Assembly: GCA_017472965.1 (NCBI GenBank)
Contig: JAFUNR010000012.1
Coordinates: 1-64,000 of the forward strand
From: Oscillospiraceae bacterium
GTDB lineage: Bacteria > Bacillota > Clostridia > Oscillospirales > Ruminococcaceae
Reading direction: 5' to 3'
Length of the DNA stretch: 64,000 bases
Shown here: positions 18,397 through 45,364 of the stretch, one piece after another
Layout: the number at the start of each line of letters is the position of its first letter
Numbering within the stretch: position 1 is the stretch's first letter
Translations under genes and position numbers: made by a program
The notes under the pieces: generated by a model
The model's input: the letters and a program-made list of their open reading frames with translations, nothing else
Told to the model about the DNA's origin: nothing
Databases searched by the model: none

Positions 18397-18974
18397 TCAC
18401 ATCAGGTTCACTGCTGTGCGGCAACATTTTCGCTTAAAATACACAAGAATAAATACAAAATCCACACAAGGCAGGAATATGCTGATGCAGTCTATCCAAA
18501 CAGGGCCGCAGCCAAAATAAACTATTGCACCGAGTATATCTGCAACCAATTTCGCAATAAATACCGCCAGAGAAATAGGCCGCATTGGATAGGATTAAAA
18601 ACATATCCCAGCCAGATGAGCACGCCAACAATAGTATTGAAATAGGAGAAGAAAAACATCGCATCGTGGTTAATCACCGTATCATACAGCGCAACCGTCA
18701 CAAGGATTATGAGCATCAAAAACATCATTTTTCGCTTTAGCGGCACTTTTTTCGTCACAAAACTTAACACAATGATCGCGAAATCAAGTAATGCCCAAAG
18801 CACATATGCCGCCACAGCATAATTGAACCGTGCAGATTTAAAAAACAAATTCAACAGCACAATCCACTCGAACGGCGCAATAACGGCCTGTGTCTGCAGT
18901 GAAATCAATGGATAACGGTATCTCACCGTCCCTAAAAAGGCCAGCGTGTACGTTACCACCCAGAAAAAACACAT
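18397..18974 (-). pseudogene. Polytopic membrane protein with apparent frameshift
   Basis: The reading frame from 18974 codes for several membrane segments but stops at 18522 after a tail (WRYLLRNWLQIYSVQ) that no longer looks like membrane protein. A different frame from 18585 continues with membrane-like sequence (PISLAVFIAKLVADILGAIV, then FVFILVYFKRK) to 18397. The simplest reading is one gene of about 190 residues with a frameshift near 18585-18600. It starts 25 bp after the Lgt-like gene, so the two form the end of the large minus-strand cluster. Function not recognised. An alternative is that the 150-residue product is real as it stands. Confidence 0.6.
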
Positions 18975-18999
18975 TTAGAAATCCAGAATTATGCGCAGA

Positions 19000-19668
19000 T
19001 CACTCATTGGGCTTTTCTCCTGTGGTTTTCTTTTTCACAAGGCACAGCCATGCAATACCAACCACAACCGCAACGATCGACCAGATATTCCCAAATGGAA
19101 GAAGCATTTGCTTTGTGACCCACGCCTCCCGCATGATGTTGAGAACAAAACGAGAACTGCCATACAAAAGTAAATACCATCCGTACAGTTCGTTCCGTCT
19201 TTCACCTTTCAGGCACCAATACTGCAGGAGCGTAAACAGGAGCAATGCCGCCACCAGCTCTACTATCTGGCTGGGAAATCGGACAGGTTCCCCAGTCTGT
19301 GACACAAACAATGGGCGCCCTTCGCAGCAGCCGCTGATCTTGCAATGAATCTTCATCAAAGCGAGCATAATGCACTCGCCTACAGCACACAGATCCATTA
19401 CTTCTCCGTACGGTACTTTTACAAGCAACGCTACACCGACAAACACAACCGGCACCAGAAAAACCGCCCCGTAAAACGACAACCCGCCAAAAAGCCCATT
19501 TTCAATAAAGTACATTAAAAACGTACCGGCGGTTCCGGTCACCGTCAGCAGAACAGTCACACAGAAAGCCTTCCATGCGGAGATTTCCTTTTCGCGTGCA
19601 GCGATCCGAATGGGCATGCCCATCAAAACTGTACCGATTGCCAAAAAAACGCAAAGCTTTAATGTCAT
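19000..19668 (-). CDS. Lgt-like prolipoprotein diacylglyceryl transferase homologue
   Basis: Polytopic membrane protein of 222 residues with Lgt-family features: FGGLSFYGAVF (about 60-70), KISGCCEGRP (about 110-119) where Lgt has its GRxGNFxN region, and RFPSQIVELVAALLLF matching the conserved PxQLYE segment. The central motif is clearly divergent from housekeeping Lgt and the protein is a little short, so it may be a specialised acyl or glycerol transferase, or inactive. AGGAG lies 8 nt before ATG. It follows the 1794-residue secreted protein gene through a stem-loop and precedes a frameshifted membrane gene. Its link to the secreted proteins upstream suggests a role in modifying or anchoring them (inference). 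Confidence 0.75.
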   Translation of the reverse strand: MTLKLCVFLAIGTVLMGMPIRIAAREKEISAWKAFCVTVLLTVTGTAGTFLMYFIENGLFGGLSFYGAVFLVPVVFVGVALLVKVPYGEVMDLCAVGECIMLALMKIHCKISGCCEGRPLFVSQTGEPVRFPSQIVELVAALLLFTLLQYWCLKGERRNELYGWYLLLYGSSRFVLNIMREAWVTKQMLLPFGNIWSIVAVVVGIAWLCLVKKKTTGEKPNE

Positions 19669-19678
19669 TTTTACTCCT

Positions 19679-19704
19679 GCCCGCCCTCGGTTTCGAGGGC
19701 GGGC
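19679..19704 (-). promoter_or_regulatory. Stem-loop just upstream of Lgt-like gene
   Basis: Perfect 11-bp GC-rich stem (GCCCGCCCTCG, loop GTTT) 9 bp after the 1794-residue protein gene. It is followed directly by the AGGAG ribosome site of the Lgt-like gene rather than a T run, so it is a candidate attenuator or mRNA 3'-end stabiliser that lowers expression of the downstream membrane genes. Confidence 0.55.
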
Positions 19705-19713
19705 TTATAGCAA

Positions 19714-22700
19714 TCAATTTTCAACAACTACATCTTTTCTGTAGGGGTTAGCCTGCGTATACGAAAGTTCAGTGCTATCAATCGTTGTACCCGGTGCATT
19801 ACCCTTTACCTCGTTACCATTCGAACTATAGTAATACTCCGTTCGAGTAGTAGTGGACGCCTTTGTCGTTTTGGCACCGTCACTGTACCCTAACACCGGT
19901 GTAGCAGACTGGGCACCCGTAATCGCAACAGTATCACCCGGCGCATAAGTTGTGTTACCGATTTTCCAACCGGTAATCGTCCAAGTACGCACCCATGTGG
20001 TATTGGAACTGGATGCTACAGAAACTGTTGTTGTCTTTATATACGGAGTATAATAGTTAATCGTATCGCAGCCAGATGTTTCACTTCTTGTTGTGTAAAC
20101 ATTCTCATTTTTGGGATACCCCGACTGTACAACGAACGATCCATTGTTCGCAGAAGCCTTATCCTCTGTCCAAGTCTGACTTCCTGGCAATGTAACAGTA
20201 AATGTACCATTCGCATTTGCCGCACCATAAATTCGAGATGGTGTGGTCGGCAAAGTCTGTCCACTTGCAGTGGAACCGAAATTCACATGCGCCGGGAAAA
20301 GCGGATTGTTAACCGTAACAGCATCGGACAATGTTACCGTATAATCCACGCCGCCGTAATTTATGGTAATTCTGCTTATTGTCTGTCTGCCCGCCGGATA
20401 AAATACCGGCCAGCTTGTAACCGATGCACCAAAGCCTAAAAGACCCTCGTCAAATGTACCGTCGGTACCTGCACCGATTTGCGCTTTATTGGACAAGCTT
20501 CCCGCATCAAAGACGACCACATTGTCATACTCACTACCATTTTGATTCGGCACAGTCAGTGTAATGCCATTATGCGTCGTAGGTACGCCTGTCACCTTAA
20601 ACGTAATGGACGGGTATTTAATTGCGACCTGTTCCTGATCGAGCGAACCAGTCTGCGCCGCAACATACATATATACCACAGCGTTAAAGTTGTCGATCTT
20701 TGTATTAAAGTTACCGGTGACAACATCCAGACTTGTAGGATTGGTTTTCTTATAGTGTCTTGCACTTGTGGGGTTGGCAGAAACACTATCGATCGTCAAA
20801 ACCGGAAGCTTGGAATACACCTCTGCCGCAAGACCGCTGAAATTCTTCGCTTTTGCCGATCCACTGGAATTACTGAAGGTTGCATCGGAATTAAACGTAG
20901 CAACCGACAGCGTGTAGTTATAGCTTCCGGCCACTTCCAGATATTTTTCCGCTTCAGCCGTGAATACCACACTGTCCCCTGCGACCGTTGGATTGGTCAT
21001 GTTGACAGGCAAAGAATTGACTGTACCGCCGGTGTAACCGCCGTAACTCTTTTGGCTGGCTTCGCCGCCATGTGCCAAATTAAGATTCACGGATGTGATC
21101 ACCGCATTCAGATCATCGGCTGCAATACCGGGCGCAGTAACAGAAACCGTCAGCCCCTTATCTTTCAAAACATACCGATCCATAAACATACCGGTACGGG
21201 TGATATTGCCGTCACCGTCTTTGGTGGCGCCCAGCAACAGTGATGTGACCGTTGCCTCCAAATGATTGATAACGGTAAAGCTTCGCTCAGCTTCCGGCAC
21301 AACATCCACAGCTCTGAGGATATACTTATCTTCATCTTCCTCACTGTAGAACTTGCCATCCGCATAGACATTGTTGAAGCGGAATTCCTTGACCGTCCAG
21401 TAACCGTTGGAATTTTCAACACCGGTCTCTGTGCTCAGGTTCGGCAATACTGCTTTGTAGTAATCACCGTCTGCGACCATTTCCAAAACATGATCGCGCT
21501 CACCATCGTTGAGCACCACCCAAATATTGGCGGTACCGGCATCATTCAAACGGACTTTATACTCGGCTGCACCGGTGCTTACAATGATCTTTTCAGATTC
21601 CATCTCATCATAGGTGGGCGGTACCTTGGAAATAATATTCAACACATGCGCACTTTCCGCTGCATTGATCGTCTGTCCACCGATTGTCAAAGATCCAAAA
21701 GAAAACCTACCCGGCTTATTTGCCATAAAGTAACCGTAATACTCGCTGCCGTTCCATGCCATTTCTTCGGTGGTCAAGCCGTTGTATTTCAGACTGGAAT
21801 TGCCCGATTTATACCAAAGCTCTACATTTTCCAAACCGCGCATGAGGTTTCCGGCATTATCAAAAACCTGTACATAGACATGGATTTTTTCAACGCCTTC
21901 AAAATCATATGTCAGCGGACCGATCACGGATTCTCCGGTCACATCATCTTTAATGTATCGCTCCAGAACAACCTGTGTTTTCAGGCCCAGATAGGCAGTA
22001 AAGCTGCGCTGCAGATCCTGTTCGTCCGGATTGGGTGTGCCATCTTCATTCAGTCCATCGGACAATTCCATATGTACCCCATCCATAATCAGATACTGCA
22101 ATGTATATGTACCACTCTTGGAGAATGTGGCATTACCCTGCCACGCATTGCCCGTTTTATACATTGCAACATTAACAGAACGCTGGTCCTCTGTGTGCAC
22201 AAACACAGCCTGCATGGTACGCGGCTCAATCGCAGCATTCAGCGTTACCGTAACCGGACGGGTAACGCTGGAATCAGCTGTCAACGCCGCAATTTCATCA
22301 AAATTGACCGTAGAAACTTCAAAACCATCCACATGGATCGTCAAAGTTTGCGGCAGCGGATAATCGACACCATCCACCCGCAGCGAATTCAGAACATATG
22401 TACCGGGCATGGTAACCGGTATATTCGCGGTATATTTGCTGTCACCCGCATCCTGCAGCTTCACCGGCTCCATACGGGAACCCTGCGAATTATTGATCTT
22501 ACGCTGAAAAACAGCTTCTATTCCCTTGACGGGGGTCATTCCCATCAAAGTTGCTTCCAGACCGACATACTGCTCTGCACCGTTATACTCCAACTCTGCG
22601 TTGAAACTATCCAGCACACAGTTACAGTTAGCACCATGGATCTCTTCCAGCGAGGCACTGAGCGAAATGGTATCCATGGAAAGCTCAGTGTCGCCTACCG

Positions 22701-25098
22701 AGCGCAGCGTACCTTCGGCGGTACCATCGGTGCAATCAAACTGCAGGTTCAGACTACCGATGAAATCACCCTCGGACATAACCATTTCGTTCTCCAGATT
22801 TTCACCATCCAGATACAGCAAAACGGAGATGCGGGTAGCCACATTCTTTTTCAGACGACAGATACCAAAAATCGTTTCGGTCACAACACCGCTTTCGCTA
22901 ACAATGTCAATTAAATTGCTTGTTTGTGTAATCGAAATGGGAACCGTATATTTACCGGCTTCCTCAAATACATGGTCCACATCCATACCGCCGCGGGCAA
23001 GCTCATTTCCCTGTGCGTCAATAAACACCAAGCGCATATTGCGCAGCAGATCCAGCGAGCGGGCATAAGCTTCCGGTGTATCGGCATAGAAGATGTAGCA
23101 GCTACCGGAACCCTGCGTACTGCTGATCTCGCCTTCCACCAACATGGGAGGATCGTTATATGTGTCGTCTTCCTGCCAGATACGGTTGGCACTGGTGAAA
23201 CCGACAACCTTTTCGTATCTATCCATTTTAGGAGAAATCAGCGGATTCCCCTGCGTATCCTTATCCGTCTCTTTGATAGGTTCTTCTGTCGGCGTAAAAT
23301 TGAATTCAGCATCCACATCAATCCGGTATTCAATTGCGTATGTGCTGCAATTACGGAAATTTCCATCGTCGTCCTGATAGACAAGAACCTCCTCAACTGC
23401 AGGCACTTTACCTATAGCAGGAACATCTACCACTTCTCCCGTATATTTGTTATACGCATATACATCACGCGGTTCACTTTCACCGGTAACAATGATCTGA
23501 CGCCGTTTTTCCTCCTCTATCACTTCCGGGGTGCCGTTTAATGTGAGCAATGCATCTGCCGCATTGGTGCGAAGCCACACATCCAACACCATGCCATAGG
23601 TATCCTGCGCTTCTGCCACACGGGTATCCGCACCGGCATTCAGCGCCTCTTTTGCATACTCATATTCCTGCTCGAATTTACTGGTCTGCGTACGGGAAAC
23701 ACTGGTGGTCATAACACCAACGCCATCATAGTCCACTTTTACGATGACAAAATTTTTATAGACCTTTACCGGGATATCCATGGACATGAATGTACCGGAT
23801 AAATCTTCAAAATCCCACAAATTGCCTTGTTTCAGAACAACGCTTGCACGCTTGGGCATTGTGTTTACAAAATCCACCGCGCCCATACCCATAGAAGCAA
23901 TTGCACCAATAGTATAGCCCTGTACCGTCAAGCTGTTGATATGGATCAGATTATTTACCATCGGTTCAATATCTGACCAATTTATCTTTGCCTTGGGCTG
24001 ACCGTTTGCCTCCCAGAAGCTCAGCATGGTCTGCCAATCCGCATACGCTTCATCGTGCAGACTTTTGAAAGTATTTGTATTGCTGTAATTATTCCTGGAT
24101 GCATTGTAACCCAACGCACTCAACCGAACACCATTTTTCAACAGCGCATTGCGGTCTGCCGCCAGCAAAGTGCTCAGGGTATAATCCGGCGCTGTGGCCT
24201 TATCCAATCTTTGCAAGTTGGCGATATAAACCAGACTTTCGCCGGTGAGTGCAATAACATCATTGTAAAAATCGTCAAGCATTGCAGTCAGAGACGGAAC
24301 ATATGTGGCGCCATCCAGCTCTACATCCGGCATTTCTCCGTTACCGCTGCCCAGAAGTTCATTAATAGCCGCATCAATGTTCTCATCCAAATAGGTCTGC
24401 ACCAGTGCACGGATGACTTCAATATAATCTTCATTGCCCGTCAATGCTTCATAATTTTTACGCGCATCTCGCTGCATCTCGCTCACGGTACGCAGCTTGA
24501 TTTGATTGACATCCTCCTGACCTTTATACACAACAGAAGAAATTGCGCGCACACCATAAGCCTTGCCCTCAGGATATACCGACGGGAAACCGGACGGCGC
24601 CACAAATTTCCATGTATTGGTTGTCTTATCCGTTTCATACCAGGTAGTAAAACCGAAATCGGAAGCAGCGCTTTCAACTCGGCCATCACCGCTGTAGTTT
24701 ACACCGTAAATCAGCGCATCGCTCTGCAGGTCCAGCGCGGCAGGGCGCAGAACCAGGCTTTCGATACCATAATTGGCGGTCAGGTTGATCAGGTTGCCCC
24801 ACGTAGTGTTGGCTCCGTGGGTGGTCTGGCCTTCCGCGGAGAAAGAATCCGATACGCCGGAGCGCTCGGGCTCTTTACCGTCAAAATCGGAAAGTGCAAT
24901 TTCCAGGCTGCCGTTGGCAGCGACAGTGGTCTTGATGCCGGCCACCTCGGGATTGATCGAGAGGGTGATCCACGCATAACTGACCGATACCATCAGCGTG
25001 AGAGAAAGCACGAACATCATGGCGACGGTCGCGACCTTTTCCCGCACGTTGGGCAGCGCTTTTTTCAGTTCTTCAATGCGTTGCTTTGTTTCTGTCAC
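19714..25098 (-). CDS. Giant secreted protein with SipW-type N-terminus (1794 aa)
   Basis: Largest gene of the minus-strand cluster. A cytosolic charged helix (about 1-20) precedes a hydrophobic segment and SYAWITLSINPEVAGI (about 40-55), then AANGSLEIALSD. This N-terminus and the YGVNYSGDGRV and YGVRAI blocks are shared with the 868-residue protein at 37716, so the two are paralogues. A block RISVLLYLDGENLENE (about 755) matches a block in that paralogue and recalls the WLEG motif of three smaller neighbours. The rest (about 790-1794) is beta-rich, with repeated patterns such as PGTYVLNSLRVDG and SGTYTLQYLIMDG, and a Ser/Thr-rich end. No anchor is visible. GTG start, 8 nt after AGGAGG. Likely a fibre or surface-layer component; function not known. 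Confidence 0.85.
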   Translation of the reverse strand: MTETKQRIEELKKALPNVREKVATVAMMFVLSLTLMVSVSYAWITLSINPEVAGIKTTVAANGSLEIALSDFDGKEPERSGVSDSFSAEGQTTHGANTTWGNLINLTANYGIESLVLRPAALDLQSDALIYGVNYSGDGRVESAASDFGFTTWYETDKTTNTWKFVAPSGFPSVYPEGKAYGVRAISSVVYKGQEDVNQIKLRTVSEMQRDARKNYEALTGNEDYIEVIRALVQTYLDENIDAAINELLGSGNGEMPDVELDGATYVPSLTAMLDDFYNDVIALTGESLVYIANLQRLDKATAPDYTLSTLLAADRNALLKNGVRLSALGYNASRNNYSNTNTFKSLHDEAYADWQTMLSFWEANGQPKAKINWSDIEPMVNNLIHINSLTVQGYTIGAIASMGMGAVDFVNTMPKRASVVLKQGNLWDFEDLSGTFMSMDIPVKVYKNFVIVKVDYDGVGVMTTSVSRTQTSKFEQEYEYAKEALNAGADTRVAEAQDTYGMVLDVWLRTNAADALLTLNGTPEVIEEEKRRQIIVTGESEPRDVYAYNKYTGEVVDVPAIGKVPAVEEVLVYQDDDGNFRNCSTYAIEYRIDVDAEFNFTPTEEPIKETDKDTQGNPLISPKMDRYEKVVGFTSANRIWQEDDTYNDPPMLVEGEISSTQGSGSCYIFYADTPEAYARSLDLLRNMRLVFIDAQGNELARGGMDVDHVFEEAGKYTVPISITQTSNLIDIVSESGVVTETIFGICRLKKNVATRISVLLYLDGENLENEMVMSEGDFIGSLNLQFDCTDGTAEGTLRSVGDTELSMDTISLSASLEEIHGANCNCVLDSFNAELEYNGAEQYVGLEATLMGMTPVKGIEAVFQRKINNSQGSRMEPVKLQDAGDSKYTANIPVTMPGTYVLNSLRVDGVDYPLPQTLTIHVDGFEVSTVNFDEIAALTADSSVTRPVTVTLNAAIEPRTMQAVFVHTEDQRSVNVAMYKTGNAWQGNATFSKSGTYTLQYLIMDGVHMELSDGLNEDGTPNPDEQDLQRSFTAYLGLKTQVVLERYIKDDVTGESVIGPLTYDFEGVEKIHVYVQVFDNAGNLMRGLENVELWYKSGNSSLKYNGLTTEEMAWNGSEYYGYFMANKPGRFSFGSLTIGGQTINAAESAHVLNIISKVPPTYDEMESEKIIVSTGAAEYKVRLNDAGTANIWVVLNDGERDHVLEMVADGDYYKAVLPNLSTETGVENSNGYWTVKEFRFNNVYADGKFYSEEDEDKYILRAVDVVPEAERSFTVINHLEATVTSLLLGATKDGDGNITRTGMFMDRYVLKDKGLTVSVTAPGIAADDLNAVITSVNLNLAHGGEASQKSYGGYTGGTVNSLPVNMTNPTVAGDSVVFTAEAEKYLEVAGSYNYTLSVATFNSDATFSNSSGSAKAKNFSGLAAEVYSKLPVLTIDSVSANPTSARHYKKTNPTSLDVVTGNFNTKIDNFNAVVYMYVAAQTGSLDQEQVAIKYPSITFKVTGVPTTHNGITLTVPNQNGSEYDNVVVFDAGSLSNKAQIGAGTDGTFDEGLLGFGASVTSWPVFYPAGRQTISRITINYGGVDYTVTLSDAVTVNNPLFPAHVNFGSTASGQTLPTTPSRIYGAANANGTFTVTLPGSQTWTEDKASANNGSFVVQSGYPKNENVYTTRSETSGCDTINYYTPYIKTTTVSVASSSNTTWVRTWTITGWKIGNTTYAPGDTVAITGAQSATPVLGYSDGAKTTKASTTTRTEYYYSSNGNEVKGNAPGTTIDSTELSYTQANPYRKDVVVEN

Positions 25099-25174
25099 TT
25101 CTTTTACCTCCTGCCAGGTAGTTTGCTTTGCAGGCGCATCGGGTCTGCTTTATATTGAGTGATCGAATTTGTGA

Positions 25175-26911
25175 TCAATTGGTGTTGATGAAGAAATATA
25201 CTGTCTGCTTGCGCAGAGGGACACCGTTCCAATCCCACACAAGATTCATGCGGTAGCTGCCGGGCGTGGGATAGACGGCATCCTTTGTCCGGATCAGTTG
25301 GAAACCTTCCTGTGTCATAACAGCGCTGACGGTTTTATCCGCAGCATAGGCAAGACTGCCATCCCCGGTTTTTGTCAGCCGCTCAATGCTCTGCACCTGC
25401 AGCTGTGCACCGTTCCAAAGCGGGGCTATTGTAACATTATAAGGCATTTTGCTGGATAATACAAGACCCATGGAAAGAGAGGGGGCCGTTTCCAATGTGG
25501 GATGCAGTTCCTGAGATGTATATTTCAGCGCGGAGACGGTGATCACCGGGCGGTGCTCCGCCGGCAGCGCGGTGCCAAAATCAAGGAGCACCGTGCCATC
25601 CCAGTTTTCAGCATAAGGCCACAGCAGTGAAACCGCATTGGTATCATACAGCATGGTATAACTTTTGCCGCCATCCAGACTGTATCGAACCTTTTTCAGT
25701 TCTGCTTTTTCGCCGGCTGCATTCATGGAATGAAAACGCAGGGTAAAATCCGACTGTGTTTCCAGATTCAGCCTGACCGCCGTGACCGGAGCGCTGATAT
25801 CGGCAATGGGGGTATACTCCAAAAGCTCAAGATCTGTGACGATCTCATGCTTTTCTGTCGAGGATTCCGTTTTACTTTCGGATTCTGACCCGCTCCCGGA
25901 TTCCGATACGCTGCCGGAACCCGACGCAGGTGCGGACGCTGCCGAGCCGCTCGACTGACTGTTGCTTTGGGAATCGCTTTCCTGACTGCTGTCTGTACCG
26001 CTTTGCGAAACGCTTTCGGTATCGGACATTCCGGACGATACCGGTGCAGAACTGTCCGAAGTTACCGCCGACTGAGAGCCAGACACCGTGTTGGAGGAGA
26101 TTGCCGACCCGGAGGATACAGAACTCTTTGATGAAACCGCTGCACCGGAAGATGCCGCAGATGTTGAAGAACTGTTCTGACTCTCCGACATATCTGTTTC
26201 GGATGCCGGTAAAGTATTCCCCGTCACTGCGGGCGGATCATAGGGCATCATGTTGAGGTGGAATGTAGCTTCCAGCCCGCGCCAGATGACACGAACCGAC
26301 ATAGGAACAATCTCGCTCAAACCAACGCCCTGCGTACGGCGCTCCAAAACAAGCTGAATGGAATCGTTTGTAAGCTGAACCGCGGGAAGCAGATGGATGC
26401 CTGCACTCTCATCCAGTAGCACCGTTACTTCAGCGGGGTCAAACACAGGAGTATCCTCGACCTCACCAGCTTCGGGACTCTCCGGCGCATTCTCTTCCCC
26501 GGCCACAGATGCATTCGTATCCGCAGAGGATGCCGTACCGGAAACAGGCGCATTGCTTTCCACGGTATCTGTAGTGGCAGCAGACTCCGGCTCCGTCTGA
26601 GAAGAAGTATTCTCTGATGAAGCGGCATCGGTTACCGCCTCCGCAACTGATACGGGACGCTGCACTGCAATCGTAAGTACACGCTGTGTTTCTGTCGATT
26701 GCCAGTTGGCAAGAACGATCTTCTGGCCGCCTTCTACCAGACAGTCACTGCCGTATCCATCGGTTTGGACGGGCGAATAAACAACTTCCGTACTGGACCA
26801 ATCGATCAGGCGGCAATATGTGCCGCCCACCGAAAGAGCTATAATCAACAGGGCTGCCGTGACGATCCATGCCAGTGGGATCTTGCTGTGGTGGCTATTT
26901 GAAGGATGCAT
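25175..26911 (-). CDS. Secreted Ser-rich protein of unknown function
   Basis: Protein of 578 residues with one N-terminal membrane segment (about 13-29) ending GGTYCRLIDW, a variant of the SipW-type region seen in its neighbours. A first beta region (about 35-75), an acidic Ser/Thr/Ala linker (about 80-160), a second beta region (about 155-230) and a long Ser-dominated low-complexity stretch (about 235-350) are followed by a C-terminal beta domain (about 355-578) rich in Trp and Tyr. Ser-rich stretches like this are often glycosylated spacers. AAAGGAG precedes the ATG. It lies 76 bp before the 1794-residue gene in the same direction. No family recognised. Confidence 0.8.
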   Translation of the reverse strand: MHPSNSHHSKIPLAWIVTAALLIIALSVGGTYCRLIDWSSTEVVYSPVQTDGYGSDCLVEGGQKIVLANWQSTETQRVLTIAVQRPVSVAEAVTDAASSENTSSQTEPESAATTDTVESNAPVSGTASSADTNASVAGEENAPESPEAGEVEDTPVFDPAEVTVLLDESAGIHLLPAVQLTNDSIQLVLERRTQGVGLSEIVPMSVRVIWRGLEATFHLNMMPYDPPAVTGNTLPASETDMSESQNSSSTSAASSGAAVSSKSSVSSGSAISSNTVSGSQSAVTSDSSAPVSSGMSDTESVSQSGTDSSQESDSQSNSQSSGSAASAPASGSGSVSESGSGSESESKTESSTEKHEIVTDLELLEYTPIADISAPVTAVRLNLETQSDFTLRFHSMNAAGEKAELKKVRYSLDGGKSYTMLYDTNAVSLLWPYAENWDGTVLLDFGTALPAEHRPVITVSALKYTSQELHPTLETAPSLSMGLVLSSKMPYNVTIAPLWNGAQLQVQSIERLTKTGDGSLAYAADKTVSAVMTQEGFQLIRTKDAVYPTPGSYRMNLVWDWNGVPLRKQTVYFFINTN

Positions 26912-26967
26912 CGCGGCAACTCCTTTCTTTATTTTTCGGGCTTTCTTACAAAACCCACATAGGTTTA

Positions 26968-33724: not shown

Positions 33725-33745
33725 GGTACACCTCCCTCAGGCGGA

Positions 33746-37415: not shown

Positions 37416-37715
37416 TTGTTATCCTCCTTCGTCAGGGTATTGCGCCGAAGGCGGCGGGGAAAAACGAATCAATGGGAGCAAACCTCGTTGGGTCTGCTTT
37501 TCCGGGGATCCGTTGGGAAAAACGGGAAAGCAAACAGGTCGCCGGAAAAGCAGACCGCCTGATTCCGAAACGGCATCGTGCAAAAGTGCGCACTCCCCGC
37601 ACATTGCAGCAACACACTCGAAATCCTTGGTTCCCCCGCCCCGCCCGAAGGCGGGGCGGGAGAACTGGCGGATTTGCTTTTTAAGAATCAATCAGAAACT
37701 TTTTGTGGGGTTGAA
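37416..37715 (-). other. Structured 300-bp spacer inside the cluster
   Basis: No gene found. It contains a 15-bp perfect inverted repeat (GGTCTGCTTTTCCGG at 37491-37505 and its complement at 37542-37556) whose loop itself holds a CCGTT/AACGG hairpin, and an 11-bp GC-rich hairpin (37635-37660, loop CGAA). Neither is followed by a T run on the coding strand. They are candidates for RNA processing, attenuation or protein binding between the 868- and 331-residue protein genes. Confidence 0.6.
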
Positions 37716-40322
37716 TCAAGGATTAGCCGTGGGCACAGTCCAAGTCACAGGAGCGCTGGCATCGGACTGAGTCTTGTTGGCGCCCTGAGCGACAACAGTG
37801 ATCGACACAGTCATGCCCGCAGGAGCCTTATCGCCCAGAGAGGCAACACCGGCAGCCAGATCAAACGGAGCGGAAACATCCTTGACAGAACCGATGTTCA
37901 TGCCGTTGGCGTAGATCTGATAGGTATCAGCACCATCAACAGCGGTGATGGTCAGATTGTTGCCGGCAAGAGAAACTGCGGGAGCAAGCAGCTTATCACC
38001 AAAGGTGTACTGCATGGGCTCCAGATCGGCATCGCTGGCGAACTGCAGATTCAGAGTACCGGTCATAGAATCGCCGTTGATGGCAACATCAGCGTTATCA
38101 ACTTCGTTGCCGTCCAGATAGACAACAGCGGTCAGATACTCGGTAGCATTCTGAACCAGTGCCATGATGGACTGATCTCCGGCAATACCGCTCAGATCGA
38201 CCACTCCGGTTTCATTGATGGAGAAGTTGTACAGGTACAGCTTAGCCTTGACGGTCTTGGTGGCAGGATCCACCTCGTAGTTGGGAATGCTGTACAGCGG
38301 TTCATTCAGACCGTTGTTGGATTCGGTGGTCATATTGCCGGTATCCTTATCCACATACAGCAGATTGCCGTTCATATCCTCGGCCTGTACATAAACAGGT
38401 TTGGCGAGATCAGCGGTCGGAGCATCTTCCAACACTTTAACAGGGGGCTCATCCGTAGACCAGTAGTACTTCTTACCGGTGGCCTCATCAACCTCCTGCA
38501 CCGTTTCTTCGCCCACATCCAGACCGGCAACAGCAAAGATATTACCGGTAGCGTCATCGGTAAAGACAACACGGATGCTGCCCATCAGATTTGCCATCTG
38601 CTCAACCGTGAAATCGGGGTTGGTGGAGGTGAACTGCATGTAGCTGCCCGCACCCTGCGTGGCGGCACCGCTTTCTTCAGAAATGCGATTGGCGGCTTCG
38701 GTCTGCAGCAGCAGGTTGGAATTGGCGGCATTGGTGCGGAAAGCCAGGTCGATGGCGTAACCGAAGGTATCGCTGATCAGGCTTTCGCCGCCATCATCGG
38801 AAACAGACAGGTTGGACAGCCAGCCTTCGGTGCTCTTCAGATACCAGCCGCCGGTAGGCTCGTCCACCTCGGTAGCGATGTTAACGGTTACATTGGTATT
38901 GATCTCACCAAAGCTGGAGAAGTTGCCTTCCACATGCATGGAAGCAGTGGTGCTGTAGTTATTGGTAAAGGAGGCGATATCCGCATAAATACCGGCTTTG
39001 ATGGTGATCTCGGGGGTGCCGTTCATCAGAGAGGTCGCCAGAGAAGCCAGACCGCCATACTGAGCAACAGTCTTCCCGTTGATCAGAATATCATTGGGGT
39101 TCAGGATCTTGGTGATGATGTTGACCAAATCGGTATACGCAGGCATAGCAGCGCCGGCAGCCTCGTAAGGTGCAATGTTGTTGCTGACCTCTGCCAGATC
39201 AGACTTCATGCCGGTGATCTTCCCGTATGCTTCGATCAGCATCGCCTGCTTGGCAGTATGATCAAAGCCGTCATTGATGTCATCCTCCTCATTGCTGTCC
39301 GCTTTGGACCACTGCAGAGCCACACCGGTAACGGTGATCTCGCTTGCGCCAAACTGCACGGCACTCTTATCAAAGGTCAAACCCTGAGAAACGCCCAGCG
39401 CCACAACAGCACTGCGCACCGCATCCTCCAGAATGGCAGCAATATTCTGCAGGTTGGTGATGGCGGCACGAATGTTGGCGATATCGCTGGCATCAATAGC
39501 CTCACCCAGCTGATCCTTCACCGCCAGATTGGCGATCTTGATAGCATCGGTGTTCAGCGAATTGATGGCGCCGTTGCGGGCATTGGTGGCAGCCGCACTT
39601 ACGGCACGCTTGGCATCCAGCAGAGCCAGCTGTGCAGGGCTCATGCCGCTGGAAGTACCCAGAGCACGGACACCGTAGTTGCTGACAGTAGAGGATGCGG
39701 GGAAGCCCTTCAGCGCAGTATCATACACACTGCTGAAAGAGGAGGTGTTGAAGGCAGACATACGGCCATCCACACCGTAAACAGGGGTCTTGATAAAGGC
39801 ACCCTGCGAAGCATTCTGGAAACCGTAGGTGGCGGGAATATCCGTCGCCGCGGCATCAGCCTTCGCCTTGTTCTCGTCAGTAGTCAGATTCTCGTATTCC
39901 TTCACGCCGGCCTCGATCACTTCACCGTTTGCATCGACCAGCACACCATCCGCATTGGTGGGATAGGACTTGGTCGCATCCGTGATCTTGGAGGTGATCA
40001 GTGCAGAGGGCATCAGAGTGATATCATTCAGATGATATGTCTCGCTGCTCAGATCCAGCAGGTTGCCCCAGTAATTGTTCGCGGCGGGGAAAGCTGCGCC
40101 GGTAGAGGTGGTGATATCACCATCTTTTGTGGCACGCAGGGCGATCTCCAGGTTACCGTTGGAGCCAACGGAGGTCTGGATGCCTTTGACTTCGGGCGCG
40201 GTAGACAGGGTGAACCACGCGTAAGACGAAGACACGACCATAATGCTGGCAACCAGAACCATGGCGATTGCCGCCATCAGCTTTTTCCGAATAGAGCGAT
40301 ACTCGGAATTGGTTTTTACCAT
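37716..40322 (-). CDS. Secreted protein, paralogue of 1794-aa protein (868 aa)
   Basis: Protein of 868 residues. A basic N-terminus, a membrane segment (about 14-33) and SYAWFTLSTAPEVKGI are followed by SNGNLEIALRA; the same series occurs in the protein at 19714. Both also share YWGNLLDL or TWGNLINL, VYGVDGRM or IYGVNYSGDGRV, and YGVRAL/YGVRAI. A block LTAVVYLDGNEVDN (about 728) followed by GTLNLQF matches the paralogue (GSLNLQF). The C-terminus (about 770-868) resembles a fibronectin- or Ig-like domain with YQIYANG and a TVPTANP end. No anchor. AAAGGAA precedes ATG. Probably a major structural component; function not known. Confidence 0.84.
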   Translation of the reverse strand: MVKTNSEYRSIRKKLMAAIAMVLVASIMVVSSSYAWFTLSTAPEVKGIQTSVGSNGNLEIALRATKDGDITTSTGAAFPAANNYWGNLLDLSSETYHLNDITLMPSALITSKITDATKSYPTNADGVLVDANGEVIEAGVKEYENLTTDENKAKADAAATDIPATYGFQNASQGAFIKTPVYGVDGRMSAFNTSSFSSVYDTALKGFPASSTVSNYGVRALGTSSGMSPAQLALLDAKRAVSAAATNARNGAINSLNTDAIKIANLAVKDQLGEAIDASDIANIRAAITNLQNIAAILEDAVRSAVVALGVSQGLTFDKSAVQFGASEITVTGVALQWSKADSNEEDDINDGFDHTAKQAMLIEAYGKITGMKSDLAEVSNNIAPYEAAGAAMPAYTDLVNIITKILNPNDILINGKTVAQYGGLASLATSLMNGTPEITIKAGIYADIASFTNNYSTTASMHVEGNFSSFGEINTNVTVNIATEVDEPTGGWYLKSTEGWLSNLSVSDDGGESLISDTFGYAIDLAFRTNAANSNLLLQTEAANRISEESGAATQGAGSYMQFTSTNPDFTVEQMANLMGSIRVVFTDDATGNIFAVAGLDVGEETVQEVDEATGKKYYWSTDEPPVKVLEDAPTADLAKPVYVQAEDMNGNLLYVDKDTGNMTTESNNGLNEPLYSIPNYEVDPATKTVKAKLYLYNFSINETGVVDLSGIAGDQSIMALVQNATEYLTAVVYLDGNEVDNADVAINGDSMTGTLNLQFASDADLEPMQYTFGDKLLAPAVSLAGNNLTITAVDGADTYQIYANGMNIGSVKDVSAPFDLAAGVASLGDKAPAGMTVSITVVAQGANKTQSDASAPVTWTVPTANP

Positions 40323-40488
40323 TTGTTGATCATTCCTTTCTTTGATTTGGGATTTTACTTTTGCCTTTCGGCATTTATGTCTTCGGAAACAGTCTTTGGC
40401 CGGAGTGCTGCCTCAGACCGCTTCCGCGGCATACGGTTGGTTTTTTTGGCGGGCGATGGCCGCCCTTATGGGAGATCGGGGAAATGCA

Positions 40489-41616
40489 TTACACCGTATC
40501 GGTATCCTTATCCGGGGTCTTTTTATCCCAGAAGATCAGCGAATCGAGCAGGCGGTTCCAGAAGGAGCTGCCCTCCTCTTCTTCGTCGATCAGGGCGTAC
40601 TGCATATTCAGTCCCAGATGACCGCCGATCAGTTCATCGGTGCAATCGGGATCATCGCCTTCCAGCCAGACCACAATGGTGTATTTGTGAACCTCCTGCG
40701 GAGCGATCTTTTCACGGAAGCCGGTGGCCACGGTATCCTCATCCGCAAAAGGCGTGGGGGTCAGGCGGTAATAATTGAATGGCCCGTTGCTGGCGATCAG
40801 CTGCTGCACAGCGGCGGGGTCCTTGGCCAGAGCCATCGCGGGCACATAGTTGAAACCCACATTGTTGACACCGGCGGCGGGCACCATCTGCTGGCTGCCA
40901 TCGGGCAGAGCTTCGGCATACAGGTTCAGGCCGCCATCCTCGATGACCATGACCCACGCGGCTTTGCTGATATCAAGGCTTTCGCCCACGATCTGCAGCT
41001 CCCACTTGTAATCAACGGTGCTTTCGCCTTCGTTGCGAAGGAAATATGTATAACCAAAGTATCCAAGGCCCTCGTGCTGACCCTCGTTATCATCCACATC
41101 GGCGGGAATGCTGGTGATGGAGATACAGGGCACATCCACGGCAGGCTCGGCAAACAGGCTGGTGGAGGGCTGGGCAAAATCCGCAGTCTCGCACATGACG
41201 AAGCCTTCGCGGAAAAGCCGGTCGGAAAGGTTGATGGTGAAGTAACCGCGCATCTGGCTGATGGCCGACATGGCGAGCAATGCACCCAGAAGCAGCGCCG
41301 CTGCGCCCAGCAGCCACCAGCGGCCCTTGCCGCCGAACAGCCACCACAGGAACAGCAGGAACCTGTTTTTATCAAAATACAGGCCCATGGAGGCGGCGGT
41401 GGATTCAAAATCACTTTTCTTTTTCAGCCCCTGCGCACGCAGATCCTTGCGCAGCTTTTTGCGGCCAGCCTTGATCTCCTTGACCTGCGCCTTTGTCAGG
41501 CGCACGCCACCGCGTGTGCGGAGGGTCAGGCGCTCGCTCGGGGGCTTCTTTTCTTTGCCTTTTTTCTTCGGATCCTGATTTTCAGGCTCCGCAACAACGG
41601 TTTTCGTCTCACTCAT
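40489..41616 (-). CDS. Single-pass membrane protein with WLEGDDPDC motif
   Basis: Protein of 375 residues with a long basic cytosolic N-terminus (about 1-82, rich in Lys/Arg), one membrane segment (about 100-120) and an extracytoplasmic beta-rich domain starting MRGYFTINLSDRLF. The C-terminal VVWLEGDDPDC (about 315-325) matches the motif of the 451- and 331-residue secreted proteins. Unlike those it has a large cytosolic part and no YAW-type signal, so it could connect the outside structure with cytosolic partners. Its ATG overlaps the stop of the HD-GYP/EAL-like gene (ATGA), implying coupled synthesis. Confidence 0.82.
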   Translation of the reverse strand: MSETKTVVAEPENQDPKKKGKEKKPPSERLTLRTRGGVRLTKAQVKEIKAGRKKLRKDLRAQGLKKKSDFESTAASMGLYFDKNRFLLFLWWLFGGKGRWWLLGAAALLLGALLAMSAISQMRGYFTINLSDRLFREGFVMCETADFAQPSTSLFAEPAVDVPCISITSIPADVDDNEGQHEGLGYFGYTYFLRNEGESTVDYKWELQIVGESLDISKAAWVMVIEDGGLNLYAEALPDGSQQMVPAAGVNNVGFNYVPAMALAKDPAAVQQLIASNGPFNYYRLTPTPFADEDTVATGFREKIAPQEVHKYTIVVWLEGDDPDCTDELIGGHLGLNMQYALIDEEEEGSSFWNRLLDSLIFWDKKTPDKDTDTV

Positions 41617-43079
41617 TTGAACTGCCTCACAATGGCATCACGGATCAGCTGGTCATCGGTGACCTGCTCGCCGGTGATGGTGCCGCAGACGGATTCCACG
41701 CCGCAGTCAAACAGGCTTTTGCGCACCTTGGCCGAATCAACACCCGCCGCCATGATGGAAAAGCCCCATGTGCGCAGCATCTGGACGGAATCGGCGGTTT
41801 CGGGCAGTTCAAGCACATCCGGCGCAAGACGCATTTTGCGGAAACCAAGTTCCTTGAGGATCTCCGGTTCCCACTGGTCGGGATGGAAATTATCAAGAAC
41901 GAGCTCGACCTCGTTGCGCAGATAGCGGGAAATCGTCTCCTGCACGCCCTTGTTGGCGGATTTGACACAGGATTCGGAAATGGTGAGCATCAGCAGATTC
42001 TTATTGACAGGCTGATCCTCAAAAAGCTGGGCAAATTCTTTCAGATAACTGGTATTGTTATAAAGATCATCCGGCATCTGCACCAGCATGAAACGGTCGC
42101 CCAGCTTGCAGTTCTGGATGCGCAGGATGGTATCCGCCGCTTCGTAAAGCAGGTAGAAAGCAACATCCTTTGTCAGGCCGGTATTGCGCAGCATCGGCTC
42201 GATATCGGCAAGGCGTTCCACCTCGCCGGGGCGATCCTGAATGCCGCCGAACCACGGGTTTGCCTCGTAACCGACGATCACGCGGCCATCGATCATAATG
42301 GGCCGGTAGGAAAGGCCCATGACACGGTCCGGGGTACGCTCGACCAGCTGGATGGTCTTGGGCAACGCCAGCGTATAGTGAATATAGCGGACATAAACCT
42401 CGCGGCAGGCTCCCTTTGCGGCATCCAACACACGGATCAGCTCCGGATTCCACTGTGCTCCGGCCTGTCCGTGCAAAGCTTCAAGAGCATCCTCAAAAGG
42501 AGATTCGGAGCGTGTGCCGGAGGCAAGCTCATCCAGCGCAAGAGCAAGACCGACGATCTGCGCCACAGGGCTGATATCATCCCCTGCGCGGCCATCCGGA
42601 TAGCCGGAGCCATCCCAGCGCTCCATGTGCTGTTCGCAGGCCTCGCGGATCATCAGCCATGGGATATTCTCGGTGGGCAACTCTTCAAACTCTTCTTCTT
42701 TTTTACGGAAGCGGTTCGTTTTTGTGCCCTGCATCTGCAGTTTGGCCACAAGAATTCGGCCGTCCGCGGGATATTTGTGGAAAAGCTGCTGCTCTTCTTC
42801 GGTAAAATCGGGCTGCCAGAGCTGGTATTCCGGCGGAACAAGCGCCTTGCCCAGCTGATGGTACATACCGCATTTGTATACGACATCGGCGTTTTTGCCG
42901 GTCATGCGCTCATAGCCGCCGGGGACTTTTTTGCCAAAGCCCATGCTGCAGGCCTGCACGAACAGCTCACGCGCATAGGATGCCACGCGAACAGACTGCT
43001 GACGCACCTGCGGCACAAGGCCTTTGAATGCGGCATCCCATGTGTCATATTCAACACGTTTCCAATTCTGTTCTTCCAC
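41613..43079 (-). CDS. Degenerate HD-GYP plus EAL-like c-di-GMP-type protein
   Basis: Cytosolic protein of 488 residues. The N-terminal part (about 20-240) is an HD-GYP domain: QQSVRVASYA, YHQLGK (74-78, normally HDxGK), HKYPADG (101) and HMERWDGSGYPDG (151-163). The aspartate of the HD pair is Gln and the first histidine is Gln, so metal binding and c-di-GMP hydrolysis look impaired although GYP is kept. The C-terminal part (about 260-488) follows the EAL fold (VELVLDNFHPDQWEPEILKE near the usual DDFGTG segment; GFSIMAAGVDS near the end) but lacks EAL. A ligand-sensing or regulatory role is likely. Upstream gene: cohesin-like; downstream: the 375-residue membrane protein. Confidence 0.83.
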   Translation of the reverse strand: MEEQNWKRVEYDTWDAAFKGLVPQVRQQSVRVASYARELFVQACSMGFGKKVPGGYERMTGKNADVVYKCGMYHQLGKALVPPEYQLWQPDFTEEEQQLFHKYPADGRILVAKLQMQGTKTNRFRKKEEEFEELPTENIPWLMIREACEQHMERWDGSGYPDGRAGDDISPVAQIVGLALALDELASGTRSESPFEDALEALHGQAGAQWNPELIRVLDAAKGACREVYVRYIHYTLALPKTIQLVERTPDRVMGLSYRPIMIDGRVIVGYEANPWFGGIQDRPGEVERLADIEPMLRNTGLTKDVAFYLLYEAADTILRIQNCKLGDRFMLVQMPDDLYNNTSYLKEFAQLFEDQPVNKNLLMLTISESCVKSANKGVQETISRYLRNEVELVLDNFHPDQWEPEILKELGFRKMRLAPDVLELPETADSVQMLRTWGFSIMAAGVDSAKVRKSLFDCGVESVCGTITGEQVTDDQLIRDAIVRQFK

Positions 43080-43115
43080 AGTTATTACTCCTTACGCCAT
43101 TGGGGTCCATGCTTC

Positions 43116-44417
43116 TTACTCAATAAGGTCTTCACTGCCGAGCAGCTCCGCATCCCCGATGAAATCTTCATTGACAGGCATTTCATCCTCTGCGATATCA
43201 TATTCGACCAAAGGCGTGGTATCTTTCTTGTTGAGATGCTTTTTGATCAGATCCCTTGCCAGCAAAACGGCGAGAACAACATTTGCGATCAGGCTGAGGA
43301 TCATAATTACAAGAATAATCGTGCTGCCGATCCACGAAGGCTCCCAGCGGGAGGCATCGTACAGCTTCTGGATACGCTTTTGCAGCTTATCGTAGGTTTT
43401 GTTCAGCTGTTCAGCGGCTGCATCGGCGGCAGCCTGATCGCCGGAGGTACGCTGTGCACGGGCTTCTTCCAATGCTTCCATGAAGTTGGCCCACGCGGCC
43501 TTGACCTTGTTGGGCTTTTCCATGACAGAAGCTTTATCCAGAGCCTCCTGCAGGGCGGTGTAATCCATGGGAACCAGCGCCTCGATGGCGGCCTTCAGCG
43601 CAGCCGCGGCATTATCCACATCCGTCTGGCTGGTGCTTTCCAGCAGACCTTCGGCAGTCTCCAGTGCCTGTGCCACCGCATCCCATGTTTCTCCGGTATA
43701 TTCGTAATCAACCAGTGCTTTGGCTGCTTCGATCTGCTCTTTCAGCGCCGTCATATCCGCCAGCGCCGGCGCGGGCGGCTGAGTTGTGCCGCTGTTGCTG
43801 TTGCTGCCGGTATTGCTGTTAGCGGAGGGCGTACTCTGCGCGGACGGCGTACTCTGTGCTGCAGAGGATGCAGCGGACGCCGCAGAGGACGAAGAAGATG
43901 CAGAAGCCGAGGAAGAACCGGAACCGGAGCCCGAACCGGAAGAAGAGTTTGCGGAGGAACCGGTGCTCAGTGTGACTGTGTAGCTGGTGGTCTGAACAGC
44001 TCCGGGCACAGTGCTGCCGGGTGCTGTGACCGCGCAGCGGAAACTGACCGTACAGCTGCTGCCGCGGGGCGCAGTGGAGCTGGCTGTGAAAGTCATTTCG
44101 ATCTTGCCGCTGGCCCCGGTGGAACTTTCGGAGTAAATAAAGATCCGGTCGTTTTTGACAGCGCCCTTCATACCGTCGCCGATCCATTTATATACAGGGT
44201 CGCCCTCGATCACGGAACGGTTGGAGAACACGATCTCGCCTTCAATGGCGCAGGCATCCGTATACTCCCATGTGATGGTTTCGGTCTTACCGGGCTCCAC
44301 CACCTTGACCTCCGTATCTGCCGCTTTTGCTGCAGGCAATACGGCAAAGGTCATGACAAGAGCCGCGGCAAGCGCAGCTGTCAGTGTCCGGAGCAGACCT
44401 TTGGAAAACAAATTCAT
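43116..44417 (-). CDS. Membrane-anchored cohesin-like/FIVAR protein
   Basis: Protein of 433 residues with a Sec signal (1-33, ending AAKAA). Residues about 35-150 resemble cohesin-type beta sandwiches: GEIVFSNRSVIEG, NDRIFIYSESSTGASGKIEM, then APRGSSCTVSF. A Ser/Ala low-complexity linker (about 155-210), a FIVAR-type helical module (about 215-285), further helices (about 285-350), a membrane segment (about 365-390) and an acidic cytosolic tail follow. The neighbouring upstream gene encodes a dockerin protein, so this may be its membrane receptor. The cohesin assignment is by pattern and moderate; the FIVAR and anchor are clearer. Confidence 0.78.
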   Translation of the reverse strand: MNLFSKGLLRTLTAALAAALVMTFAVLPAAKAADTEVKVVEPGKTETITWEYTDACAIEGEIVFSNRSVIEGDPVYKWIGDGMKGAVKNDRIFIYSESSTGASGKIEMTFTASSTAPRGSSCTVSFRCAVTAPGSTVPGAVQTTSYTVTLSTGSSANSSSGSGSGSGSSSASASSSSSAASAASSAAQSTPSAQSTPSANSNTGSNSNSGTTQPPAPALADMTALKEQIEAAKALVDYEYTGETWDAVAQALETAEGLLESTSQTDVDNAAAALKAAIEALVPMDYTALQEALDKASVMEKPNKVKAAWANFMEALEEARAQRTSGDQAAADAAAEQLNKTYDKLQKRIQKLYDASRWEPSWIGSTIILVIMILSLIANVVLAVLLARDLIKKHLNKKDTTPLVEYDIAEDEMPVNEDFIGDAELLGSEDLIE

Positions 44418-44437
44418 AGGTTATCCTTTCCTGTCCG

Positions 44438-45364
44438 TTACTTCAAGGGACTGGTGTAGCCTTCGTAGTTCAAGTATTTTTCGCAGATAAATACTGCATC
44501 CTTGGCATTGACAGAACCGTCACGATTGGCATCCGCCGCATCAAAAGCAGCACCGCTGAGCACAACAGAACCCGCCGCATGACAGGCGATCTGATTGGCA
44601 TCCGCCGCATCAATGCGGCCATTGCTGTTGACATCGCCCACCACAACAACCGTATAGCTTCTTGAAGCCACGCCGGAACTATCGGAATTGGTTGCGGAAA
44701 GAGTCAAAACCGAGCCGGTGGAAACCAGACCGGCTGCCGCGCCCTGCACATTGGCAGTGACCGATTCGGCATTCTGGGCGGGCATGGAAACCAGCGGAAG
44801 CATACTGTTCACAGAGATGCCCGCCGGAGATGCATCCAGAAAAACTCTGGCATTTGCTTCATCCACTGCGCCGCCGAGCATCTCGCCCGAACGGGAAATG
44901 GTCAGCTGGGCGCTTCCGAAGGTAGGCTCCTGCGCTTTCAGATAATAGACATAGCCGTCATGCTCCTCCATCATCTCTACAGTGCTGTAAGGAGAGAGAG
45001 CATCGTAATATTTTCTGCGTAAACGGGAATTAACAAACAACGCACCGTCACCGGACAGAAGAATACGGAAATCGCCAAAAGTGATACGGTCGGTATTTGT
45101 CAGCATGACCTCCGTTGTGAGCACGACATCGGAGGTCAGCGTAATGAAGCGATCAATGGAAACCACACTGCCGCGTTCTGCTGCAGCAAACGCAGCCTGC
45201 AGGTCATCGCCGGTATACAGAACGGCGCCGCCGCTCAACATACCCGTCACTGTAATGCTGCCGCTGGCAGCCTCCGCCGGGAACAGCTGTACCGATGTGA
45301 ACATCACGGCCGCAAGCACCGCCAGACACACCAGACATTTTGCTCTTTTCATAATATGCTTCAT
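44438..45364 (-). CDS. Secreted dockerin type I protein
   Basis: Protein of 308 residues, the first gene of the 27-kb minus-strand cluster. Sec signal about 1-33 (ending AEAA). Residues about 35-230 are beta-rich, with no known catalytic motif. The C-terminus (about 240-300) has two calcium-binding dockerin repeats: GDVNSNGRIDAADANQI and ADANRDGSVNAKDAVFI. Dockerins dock to cohesin domains; the only cohesin-like sequence in the window is in the next gene, 20 bp downstream. GAAGGAG precedes the chosen ATG by 11 nt. Confidence 0.88.
   Translation of the reverse strand: MKHIMKRAKCLVCLAVLAAVMFTSVQLFPAEAASGSITVTGMLSGGAVLYTGDDLQAAFAAAERGSVVSIDRFITLTSDVVLTTEVMLTNTDRITFGDFRILLSGDGALFVNSRLRRKYYDALSPYSTVEMMEEHDGYVYYLKAQEPTFGSAQLTISRSGEMLGGAVDEANARVFLDASPAGISVNSMLPLVSMPAQNAESVTANVQGAAAGLVSTGSVLTLSATNSDSSGVASRSYTVVVVGDVNSNGRIDAADANQIACHAAGSVVLSGAAFDAADANRDGSVNAKDAVFICEKYLNYEGYTSPLK

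Follow-up and report, generated by a model that had tools for sequence, protein, structure and literature searches.

What does a nucleoside triphosphatase (NTPase) of the McrB type, a family known from restriction, do in the middle of a long run of genes for exported proteins? The question is raised by a 27-kb cluster in the genome of an Oscillospiraceae bacterium with relatives among gut and rumen species; the cluster lies within the 64,000-nucleotide stretch of contig JAFUNR010000012.1 analysed here and called the window in what follows. The cluster consists of 17 open reading frames (ORFs), all on the minus strand from 18522 to 45364 and separated by gaps of at most 300 bases or by small overlaps, exactly the one-directional, closely packed layout described in an earlier note on this DNA. 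That note took the 17 genes to make and place a large extracellular structure; its observation is partly confirmed here and its interpretation partly supported. The best explanation, which we consider somewhat more probable than improbable, is that a surface-fibre biogenesis machine is coupled to a domesticated McrBC-type NTPase, and that SipW-type signal peptidases process and assemble the fibres.

Read from 5' to 3', the cluster begins with a dockerin protein, a FIVAR-like transmembrane (TM) protein, an HD-GYP/EAL protein, the TM-anchored WLEG protein m375 and a fibre-type protein of 868 amino acids (aa). It continues with a second fibre-type protein (331 aa), SipW peptidase 1, the McrB-like ATPase, its DUF2357 partner, a third fibre-type protein (451 aa) and SipW peptidase 2, and it ends with exported proteins of 735 and 230 aa, a Ser-rich exported protein, a 1794-aa fibre-type protein, an Lgt-like enzyme and a membrane protein of 150 aa.

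The loci used for comparison were picked by ATPase similarity only, so that the neighbours had no part in the choice, and the recognition models for the neighbours were built from these same loci. The 86 loci comprise the best 80 of at least 558 confirmed relatives in GTDB species genomes, five relatives, and the window; these 80 lean to close relatives, and weaker ones among the at least 558 may be ordinary McrB proteins. The record titles of the best 80 include two Ruminococcus albus, Anaerosporobacter faecicola, many Lachnospiraceae and Oscillospiraceae, one Bacilli and one Tenericutes. Twenty loci with short flanks were dropped (more than 3 kb upstream and more than 4.5 kb downstream being needed), and in the 66 that were counted same-strand genes no more than 10.5 kb from the ATPase were recognised as the partner in 66, as SipW in 65, as m375 in 63, as a fibre gene in 55 and as HD-GYP/EAL in 47. 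The partner is the next recognised same-strand gene after the ATPase in 83 of the 86 loci, at a median gap of 39 bases (at most 100 in 70 loci, maximum 595). The joint recurrence expected of the ATPase, its partner, the peptidases and the WLEG proteins is thereby strongly borne out, and the core genes very likely work together.

Whole genomes give the same picture. ATPase orthologues (E < 1e-130) occur in five of 60 relatives, two belonging to the family of the window and three to other families of its order, and in all five the partner and a SipW gene adjoin the ATPase. Among 393 genomes of the class, 21 encode an ATPase scoring above 360 bits, here termed full-length, the next best score being 120.9 bits. 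The m375 profile finds 17 of the 393 genomes, spread over 10 family codes, and 16 of them have the full-length ATPase (Fisher p 3e-23, with relatedness left out of account); the exception, G396, is 9% contaminated and has a genus code that also occurs among the 21. Five ATPase genomes lack m375 (G226, G239, G336, G363 and G393), and they are exactly those whose loci have no recognised SipW. The partner profile matches all 21 genomes (G239 weakly, E 3.5e-10) and gives three further weak matches. A 398-genome sample of the phylum holds the full-length ATPase only in the genome of the window and in one other of its order, together with 49 others that have low-scoring McrB-like matches. As a control, 20 ordinary McrB-like loci were taken from the low-scoring matches (10 of 11 from the class sample and 10 of 53 from the phylum sample, several on short contigs): SipW lies beside the ATPase in none of them, and a single weak match (E 5.6e-4) stands four genes away. 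The partner family model also finds the gene after four of these 20 ATPases at E up to 1e-3, a figure to which charged segments may contribute. Evolutionary distances among the core proteins correlate at 0.80-0.93 over 39 loci; shared descent alone can give such values, and they are not used as support.

The ATPase tree separates the SipW-linked proteins as well. Their 62 rows lie on one side of it, with support of 92/96 (not starred), a result shared by 90% of the 200 bootstrap trees; a split at 100/100 sets the group with the NND-D motif described below apart from the 16 rows of ordinary McrB-like proteins. In a larger quick tree the two divisions recur with support of 94 and 99. In these trees the SipW label was given to whole groups of loci and covers L047 too, a locus in which SipW was not found. 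The trees omit L167 and L172 as well as one row that lacks the P-loop pattern; for the smaller of the two, the removal of L160, L174 and near-copies brought 125 rows down to 87. The ATPases of L195 and L196 are identical to those of L021 and L044. Deeper branches without recognised SipW hold ATPase-partner-ATPase triplets in L187-L190 (genomes G363, G226, G393 and G336), adjoining ORFs of 1341-1861 aa, one of them cut by the end of the stretch; the gene preceding the triplets in L188 and L190, recognised by eye, is presumably that of ribosomal protein L17. As a separate observation, in the loci L180-L184 (family code f73) the ATPase lies among several SipW genes and genes for small exported proteins of AKY/AWF type, and no HD-GYP/EAL gene was recognised in their maps.

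The core proteins themselves are largely what the earlier note had taken them to be. The ATPase (33746-35386) matches AAA_5 of Pfam, and when its profile (A1) was compared with solved structures the McrB entries were the best (6hz4 and others, E 5.4e-7). It contains one hydrophobic segment, residues 58-76, and because this precedes a basic stretch the AAA domain is probably cytosolic; a heptad-like stretch was also seen by eye. Walker A is present in 83 and Walker B in 81 of 84 ATPase ORFs, and the NND-D (NxD) motif GTxN[NT]DD, GTINNDDST in the window, in 83; all three occur in each of the 24 ORFs of a second set. The adjacent partner (31931-33724) is of McrC type, with a DUF2357 domain followed by a charged C-terminus. 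Its residues 1-400 match PF09823 at 23.9 bits (E 2.8e-5), just over the cut-off of 23.3, and of 47 partner N-terminal domains compared at E up to 1, 42 gave the same match, the best at 6.8e-13. The full-length window partner gave no Pfam match, nucleases included, at E 0.05, a weak test in that DUF2357 was missed too. An adjacent partner had been foreseen and is there; the coiled coil that had been ascribed to it is judged from composition only.

Both SipW-like peptidases are genuine members of their family by TIGR02228 (cut-off 51.85 bits), peptidase 1 (35499-36326, with Ser75, His118 and a C-terminal tail) scoring 87.8 and peptidase 2 (29811-30566) 80.8 bits. Against the Bacillus SipW equivalog NF046067 they reach 105.3 and 81 bits, both below its cut-off of 190. 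The Ser and His are kept in all 129 peptidase ORFs of 170-480 aa, out of 133 ORFs labelled as peptidase. Of the 65 upstream copies 63, and of the 59 downstream copies 43, continue for at least 25 aa past the last hydrophobic segment. In six of the 86 loci, two of them titled Ruminococcus albus, partner and SipW form one ORF of 973-1026 aa.

The fourth component of the core comprises the WLEG proteins. The gene m375 (40489-41616) encodes one with a single hydrophobic segment and a charged N-terminal region, and it is the candidate fibre anchor. The fibre-type secreted proteins carry a conserved junction in its place, clear by eye in four proteins of the window: SYAWF in 37716-40322 (sequence reading and family model), TYTWF in 36420-37415 (by alignment; the WLEG protein representing the core type), SFAWM in the WLEG protein 30563-31918 and SYAWI in the 1794-aa exported protein 19714-25098 (sequence and family model). 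By eye, 27653-29860 has a looser AAWY and 26968-27660 has AGYARY; the similar N-termini claimed for at least seven secreted or membrane proteins are thus confirmed in part. Across the loci, the SipW-type N-terminal motif is present in 182 of 212 fibre ORFs and 21 of 534 unassigned ORFs of at least 240 aa, a comparison that is partly circular as the fibre families were found by homology; the corresponding figures for WxEG are 118 of 212 and 5 of 534. The fibre family and m375 share the WLEG domain at a profile E of 7.5e-16, or 2.1e-13 when signal and TM segments are left out, and m375 has a plain hydrophobic segment where the fibre proteins have the AWF junction.

The N-terminus of the fibre family resembles the signal region of TasA/CalY (E 6.8e-7 over 33 columns), and its conserved W-F aligns with the start of the TasA donor strand, the N-terminal stretch of residues 28-38 by which TasA monomers polymerise (PMC9674648). 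When unrelated profiles were compared as a control, E was 0.19-0.85. That the fibre body belongs to the TasA family was considered and rejected, the convincing match being confined to the signal region. TasA/CalY also matched the anchor over a long stretch (E 2.9e-5, probability 74%); this match was likewise discarded, as it dropped to E 0.011 without signal and TM segments. The TapA model matches three of 37 fibre members, the best at E 1.1e-4. Pfam finds no family in the window fibre proteins and, on 44 anchors at E up to 0.1, none in more than four. Sequence searches of the PDB with partner, anchor and fibre profiles gave nothing useful, the best match of the anchor profile being a designed protein over profile positions 25-80 only.

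Upstream of m375 lies the gene for an HD-GYP and EAL fusion (41613-43079), with HD_5 at 60.7 and EAL at 42.2 bits, both over their cut-offs. Its HD pair, read from the sequence, is changed to HQ, and the degenerate HD-GYP/EAL protein seen at first reading is therefore upheld. By the window's model, the slot before m375 is filled by one family of 65 ORFs, whose classes were set by length and the GYP motif rather than by Pfam. Fifteen are short HD-GYP forms, many in records titled Lachnospiraceae, that keep the HD pair in 15 of 15; ten, including that of the window, are HD-GYP and EAL fusions that have lost it in 10 of 10; 28 are proteins of 245-370 aa, EAL-type by residues judged by eye, one with HD; and 12 are others, some of them unrelated signalling proteins. 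This alternation and fusion points to one function built on proteins of the cyclic di-GMP (c-di-GMP) family, and the system may perhaps be under c-di-GMP-type control.

How much of this is already known? The earlier note knew of no described system with this gene content, a statement that did not hold for the core, which fits CoCoPALM, an uncharacterised clade that was named in a short text of PMC11090510 (2024), to be explored elsewhere. The likeness, by which the core is classed here as CoCoPALM-like, consists of an NTPase of McrB type with the NxD motif, a DUF2357 partner and signal-peptidase neighbours, and perhaps also of a TM/coiled-coil-like N-terminus. In CoCoPALM, NxD stands for NxxD and is usually followed by E or D, as in the ATPase ORFs counted above; the McrC homologue (DUF2357) usually has a coiled coil, and the partner family here has the domain, with a coiled coil by composition; and the association with the signal-peptidase family agrees with the 65 of 66 loci. 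The likeness is less clear for the TM/coiled-coil region fused to the NTPase, which is described as homologous to FtsB: the window ATPase has its hydrophobic segment and heptad-like stretch, but no FtsB/DivIC match in Pfam was obtained for six ATPases at E up to 1. The short CoCoPALM text of PMC11090510 says nothing of a function, of substrates that form fibres, of a WLEG anchor or an HD-GYP/EAL protein, or of fusions between partner and SipW, and the fuller gene set described here thus has components that this text leaves unmentioned. A literature search for the name gave, among relevant papers, only PMC11090510 and its preprint, and no study of the combination of NTPase, SipW and fibre was among the matches listed in the literature searches.

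Other known systems share parts of the set. The tapA-sipW-tasA/CalY genes of Bacillus have SipW, a similar SipW-type signal and first strand, and an accessory initiator or anchor (PMC9674648, PMC13082335), whereas the present cluster has in addition an NTPase with its DUF2357 partner, two peptidases and an HD-GYP/EAL protein, and a fibre body without a PF12389 match. The sipW-bsaABCRSD operon of Clostridium perfringens is also a clostridial SipW operon with a secreted polymer-forming protein; its control is by a two-component system, and the word ATPase is absent from the available text of PMC7395162. McrBC type IV restriction systems and CoCoNuTs have the same NTPase fold and motifs and a DUF2357 partner (PMC11090510), but the cluster differs from them in the membrane anchor, the export neighbours and the separate tree branch, and the weak Pfam test recognised no nuclease in the window partner. 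Finally, PcdA of Staphylococcus aureus is a McrB-family protein co-opted for a role other than restriction; according to PMC10602043 it has degraded catalytic motifs and lacks an McrC partner, whereas the cluster keeps both the motifs and the partner.

On the strength of these sequence comparisons, a mechanism can be proposed. The fibre subunits would be exported with a SipW-type signal helix and held in the membrane, where the two Ser-His peptidases would cleave at the conserved junction before W-F. The hydrophobic N-terminal strand freed by this cut would then be available for polymerising the subunits, as it is in TasA. The TM-anchored m375, without that junction, would serve as anchor or first subunit. 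On the cytosolic side, a membrane-tethered McrB-type ring, activated by the DUF2357 partner, might pull on or gate the complex of peptidase and precursor through the partner, and the covalent joining of the partner to SipW in some species would provide the link of ring to peptidase. Since the DUF2357 domain of McrC activates the McrB ring (PMC11090510), a SipW-joined partner could transmit a force or a gating signal. The HD-GYP/EAL protein, in turn, would tie the machine to a c-di-GMP-type signal. The sequences themselves establish which families are present, their conserved order and joint occurrence, the joining of partner and SipW, the WLEG domain in common, the Ser and His of the peptidases, and the NxD motif; the topology, the formation of fibres, the action of the NTPase on SipW or its substrates and the control by a nucleotide signal are inferred. 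The fullest form of this proposal is that, by domestication, a restriction-type McrBC NTPase has become the motor or gate of a machine, powered by nucleotides and controlled by a second messenger, that exports and polymerises fibres in Gram-positive gut bacteria and is physically joined to its signal peptidase; we put it forward tentatively, as possible rather than probable. No characterised example of such a secretion or assembly principle is among the literature matches listed. If it is true, McrBC-type machines, known for restriction, would also drive envelope assembly, the named but uncharacterised CoCoPALM clade would gain a concrete substrate and partner set, and the building of surface fibres by many uncultured rumen and gut Clostridia could be explained.

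Several observations weigh against a fibre machine driven by the NTPase. The TasA fibres of Bacillus and the BsaA fibres of C. perfringens are described without an NTPase (the word ATPase being absent from the available texts of PMC9674648, PMC13082335 and PMC7395162), so that an NTPase is unneeded for such fibres in general. The fibre body without its signal region matches TasA only at E 0.003 and 0.011 (probability 11% and 3.8%), and at E up to 1 nothing in the genome matches PF12389 (TasA/CalY). The HD-GYP/EAL family was not found in 19 of the 66 loci and is degenerate in the window. The peptidase tails are not special, for an unrelated SipW (77-727) has one too, of 38 aa, and 16 of the 59 downstream copies have less than 25 aa. 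The ATPase matches PDC-M26A, a candidate defence family of PADLOC, at 1.7e-42. Lastly, the occurrence of ATPase and partner on their own, which the earlier note had named as evidence against its reading, was seen in part: five of 20 further loci (L187-L191) have the pair without recognised SipW, and four of these adjoin very large proteins. One explanation that takes up the first of these points is quality control: like TasA, the fibres would assemble unaided, and the NTPase pair would do no more than pull jammed precursors, or peptidase complexes that have reached a dead end, out of the membrane. Both the tight link to SipW and a membrane-anchored AAA+ ring would fit this role; SipW, however, is the sole protease recognised in the conserved core, and the fixed operon position and the fusion to SipW suggest a constant role. 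We judge quality control rather unlikely.

The PDC-M26A match, the McrB-like ATPase with its DUF2357 partner and the kinship to CoCoNuTs, which are predicted type IV restriction systems (PMC11090510), would also agree with an McrBC-like system for restriction or for defence against phages, placed among surface proteins or making use of them. Yet the ATPase has a hydrophobic anchor, the weak Pfam test of the partner revealed no nuclease, SipW accompanies the ATPase in 65 of 66 loci and stands beside none of the 20 ordinary McrB-like ATPases, and PADLOC had no match in 12 of the 16 other cluster proteins, those that were scanned; we regard this explanation as improbable, and a plain restriction system is rejected on the SipW linkage and the lack of further PADLOC matches among those 12. 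A more general role is also conceivable, in which the pair serves surface proteins of unusual size, aiding their export or their insertion into the membrane, and SipW fibres are one client. It would account for the large ORFs next to the deep-branching pairs of L187-L190 and for the long ORFs common in the loci, but the tree places the SipW-linked rows together on one side, with a fixed set of fibre and anchor genes, and this explanation too has little probability. The dockerin gene at the head of the operon, with matches to its family in at least nine of the 86 loci, might suggest a cellulosome-like or carbohydrate-binding scaffold assembled by dockerin and cohesin. Such a scaffold is very improbable, given that a single dockerin and no cohesin were found in the genome (85% complete), that eight family members of the supposed anchor have no cohesin match, and that neither gene was recognised in the maps of the compact loci of other groups, save for dockerin matches in L065 and L078; both the scaffold and the cohesin label were rejected on this evidence. 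A fibre machine coupled to the NTPase is the reading we prefer.

This leaves the genes outside the core. The dockerin, Lgt-like, 150-aa and leucine-rich-repeat (LRR) genes lie beyond about 10 kb from the ATPase and outside many loci, so that their counts are lower bounds; contig ends limit the flanks. The first gene (44438-45364), an accessory, encodes a secreted protein whose C-terminal type I dockerin (PF00404, 39.8 bits, cut-off 22.9) agrees with the first reading and is the sole dockerin found in the genome (85% complete); it lies about 10 kb from the ATPase, beyond many flanks. The second (43116-44417) had been called a cohesin-like anchor, which found no support: there was no cohesin match in its eight family members at E up to 1, nor any in the genome at E 0.001. 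A FIVAR-like repeat fits better, at 24.2 bits and below the cut-off of 29.2, in a surface protein with one C-terminal hydrophobic segment and a conserved tail of PLVxYxI type. Such a tail is present in 12 of 15 FIVAR-like TM proteins (from the window and L021-L042) by pattern and in 14 by eye, and a narrower form of the pattern occurs in no other ORF of the 86 loci; the tail may dock onto the cytosolic machine. In the 18 loci of the window's clade, the family of the large exported protein 27653-29860 recurs in 15, that of the small exported protein 26968-27660 in 15 and that of the Ser-rich protein 25175-26911 in 12. The beta-helix proposed for 27653-29860 is not borne out, as no Pfam match was obtained at E 0.05. 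The Lgt-like membrane enzyme (19000-19668) was correctly recognised, with PF01790 at 63.2 bits (cut-off 24.9), though it falls below the NCBIfam lgt cut-offs; its family is present in at least three of the 86 loci, at about 14 kb from the ATPase and beyond most flanks. The 150-aa membrane protein (18522-18974), whose membership is uncertain, has no Pfam match at E 0.05 and was not seen in the other 85 loci, most of which are too short to reach that far, since these last two genes lie 14-19 kb from the ATPase and outside most loci. The notion of a single 17-gene set does not hold: the dockerin, FIVAR and Ser-rich families are found mainly in close relatives of the window.

As to the limits of the unit, a terminator-like hairpin with an 11-pair stem and a T run lies just upstream of the cluster (45647-45622, minus strand), and another with a 13-pair stem (16570-16542, minus strand) follows the gene 16577-18427; hairpins inside the cluster have at most eight pairs, and terminator-like hairpins of this kind exceed chance generally. 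The two flanking hairpins suggest one unit that may extend to this minus-strand gene, which encodes a BspA-type LRR surface protein (PF13306, 140.8 bits) and would then be its last, outside the cluster as delimited above. A scan for sigma-70 sites found them no more frequent than chance. Just downstream of the unit, 10897-16386 on the minus strand encodes an exported protein of 1829 aa; close to residue 1000 it has a GDSL-like match that stays under the Pfam cut-off. A separate cluster lies on the plus strand (77-9606), with no ATPase among the ORFs read in it; it is headed by another SipW-type peptidase (77-727) and encodes proteins with an AKY SipW-type junction (781-1851 and 3594-4268), along with a TM protein and an exported protein of 1605 aa.

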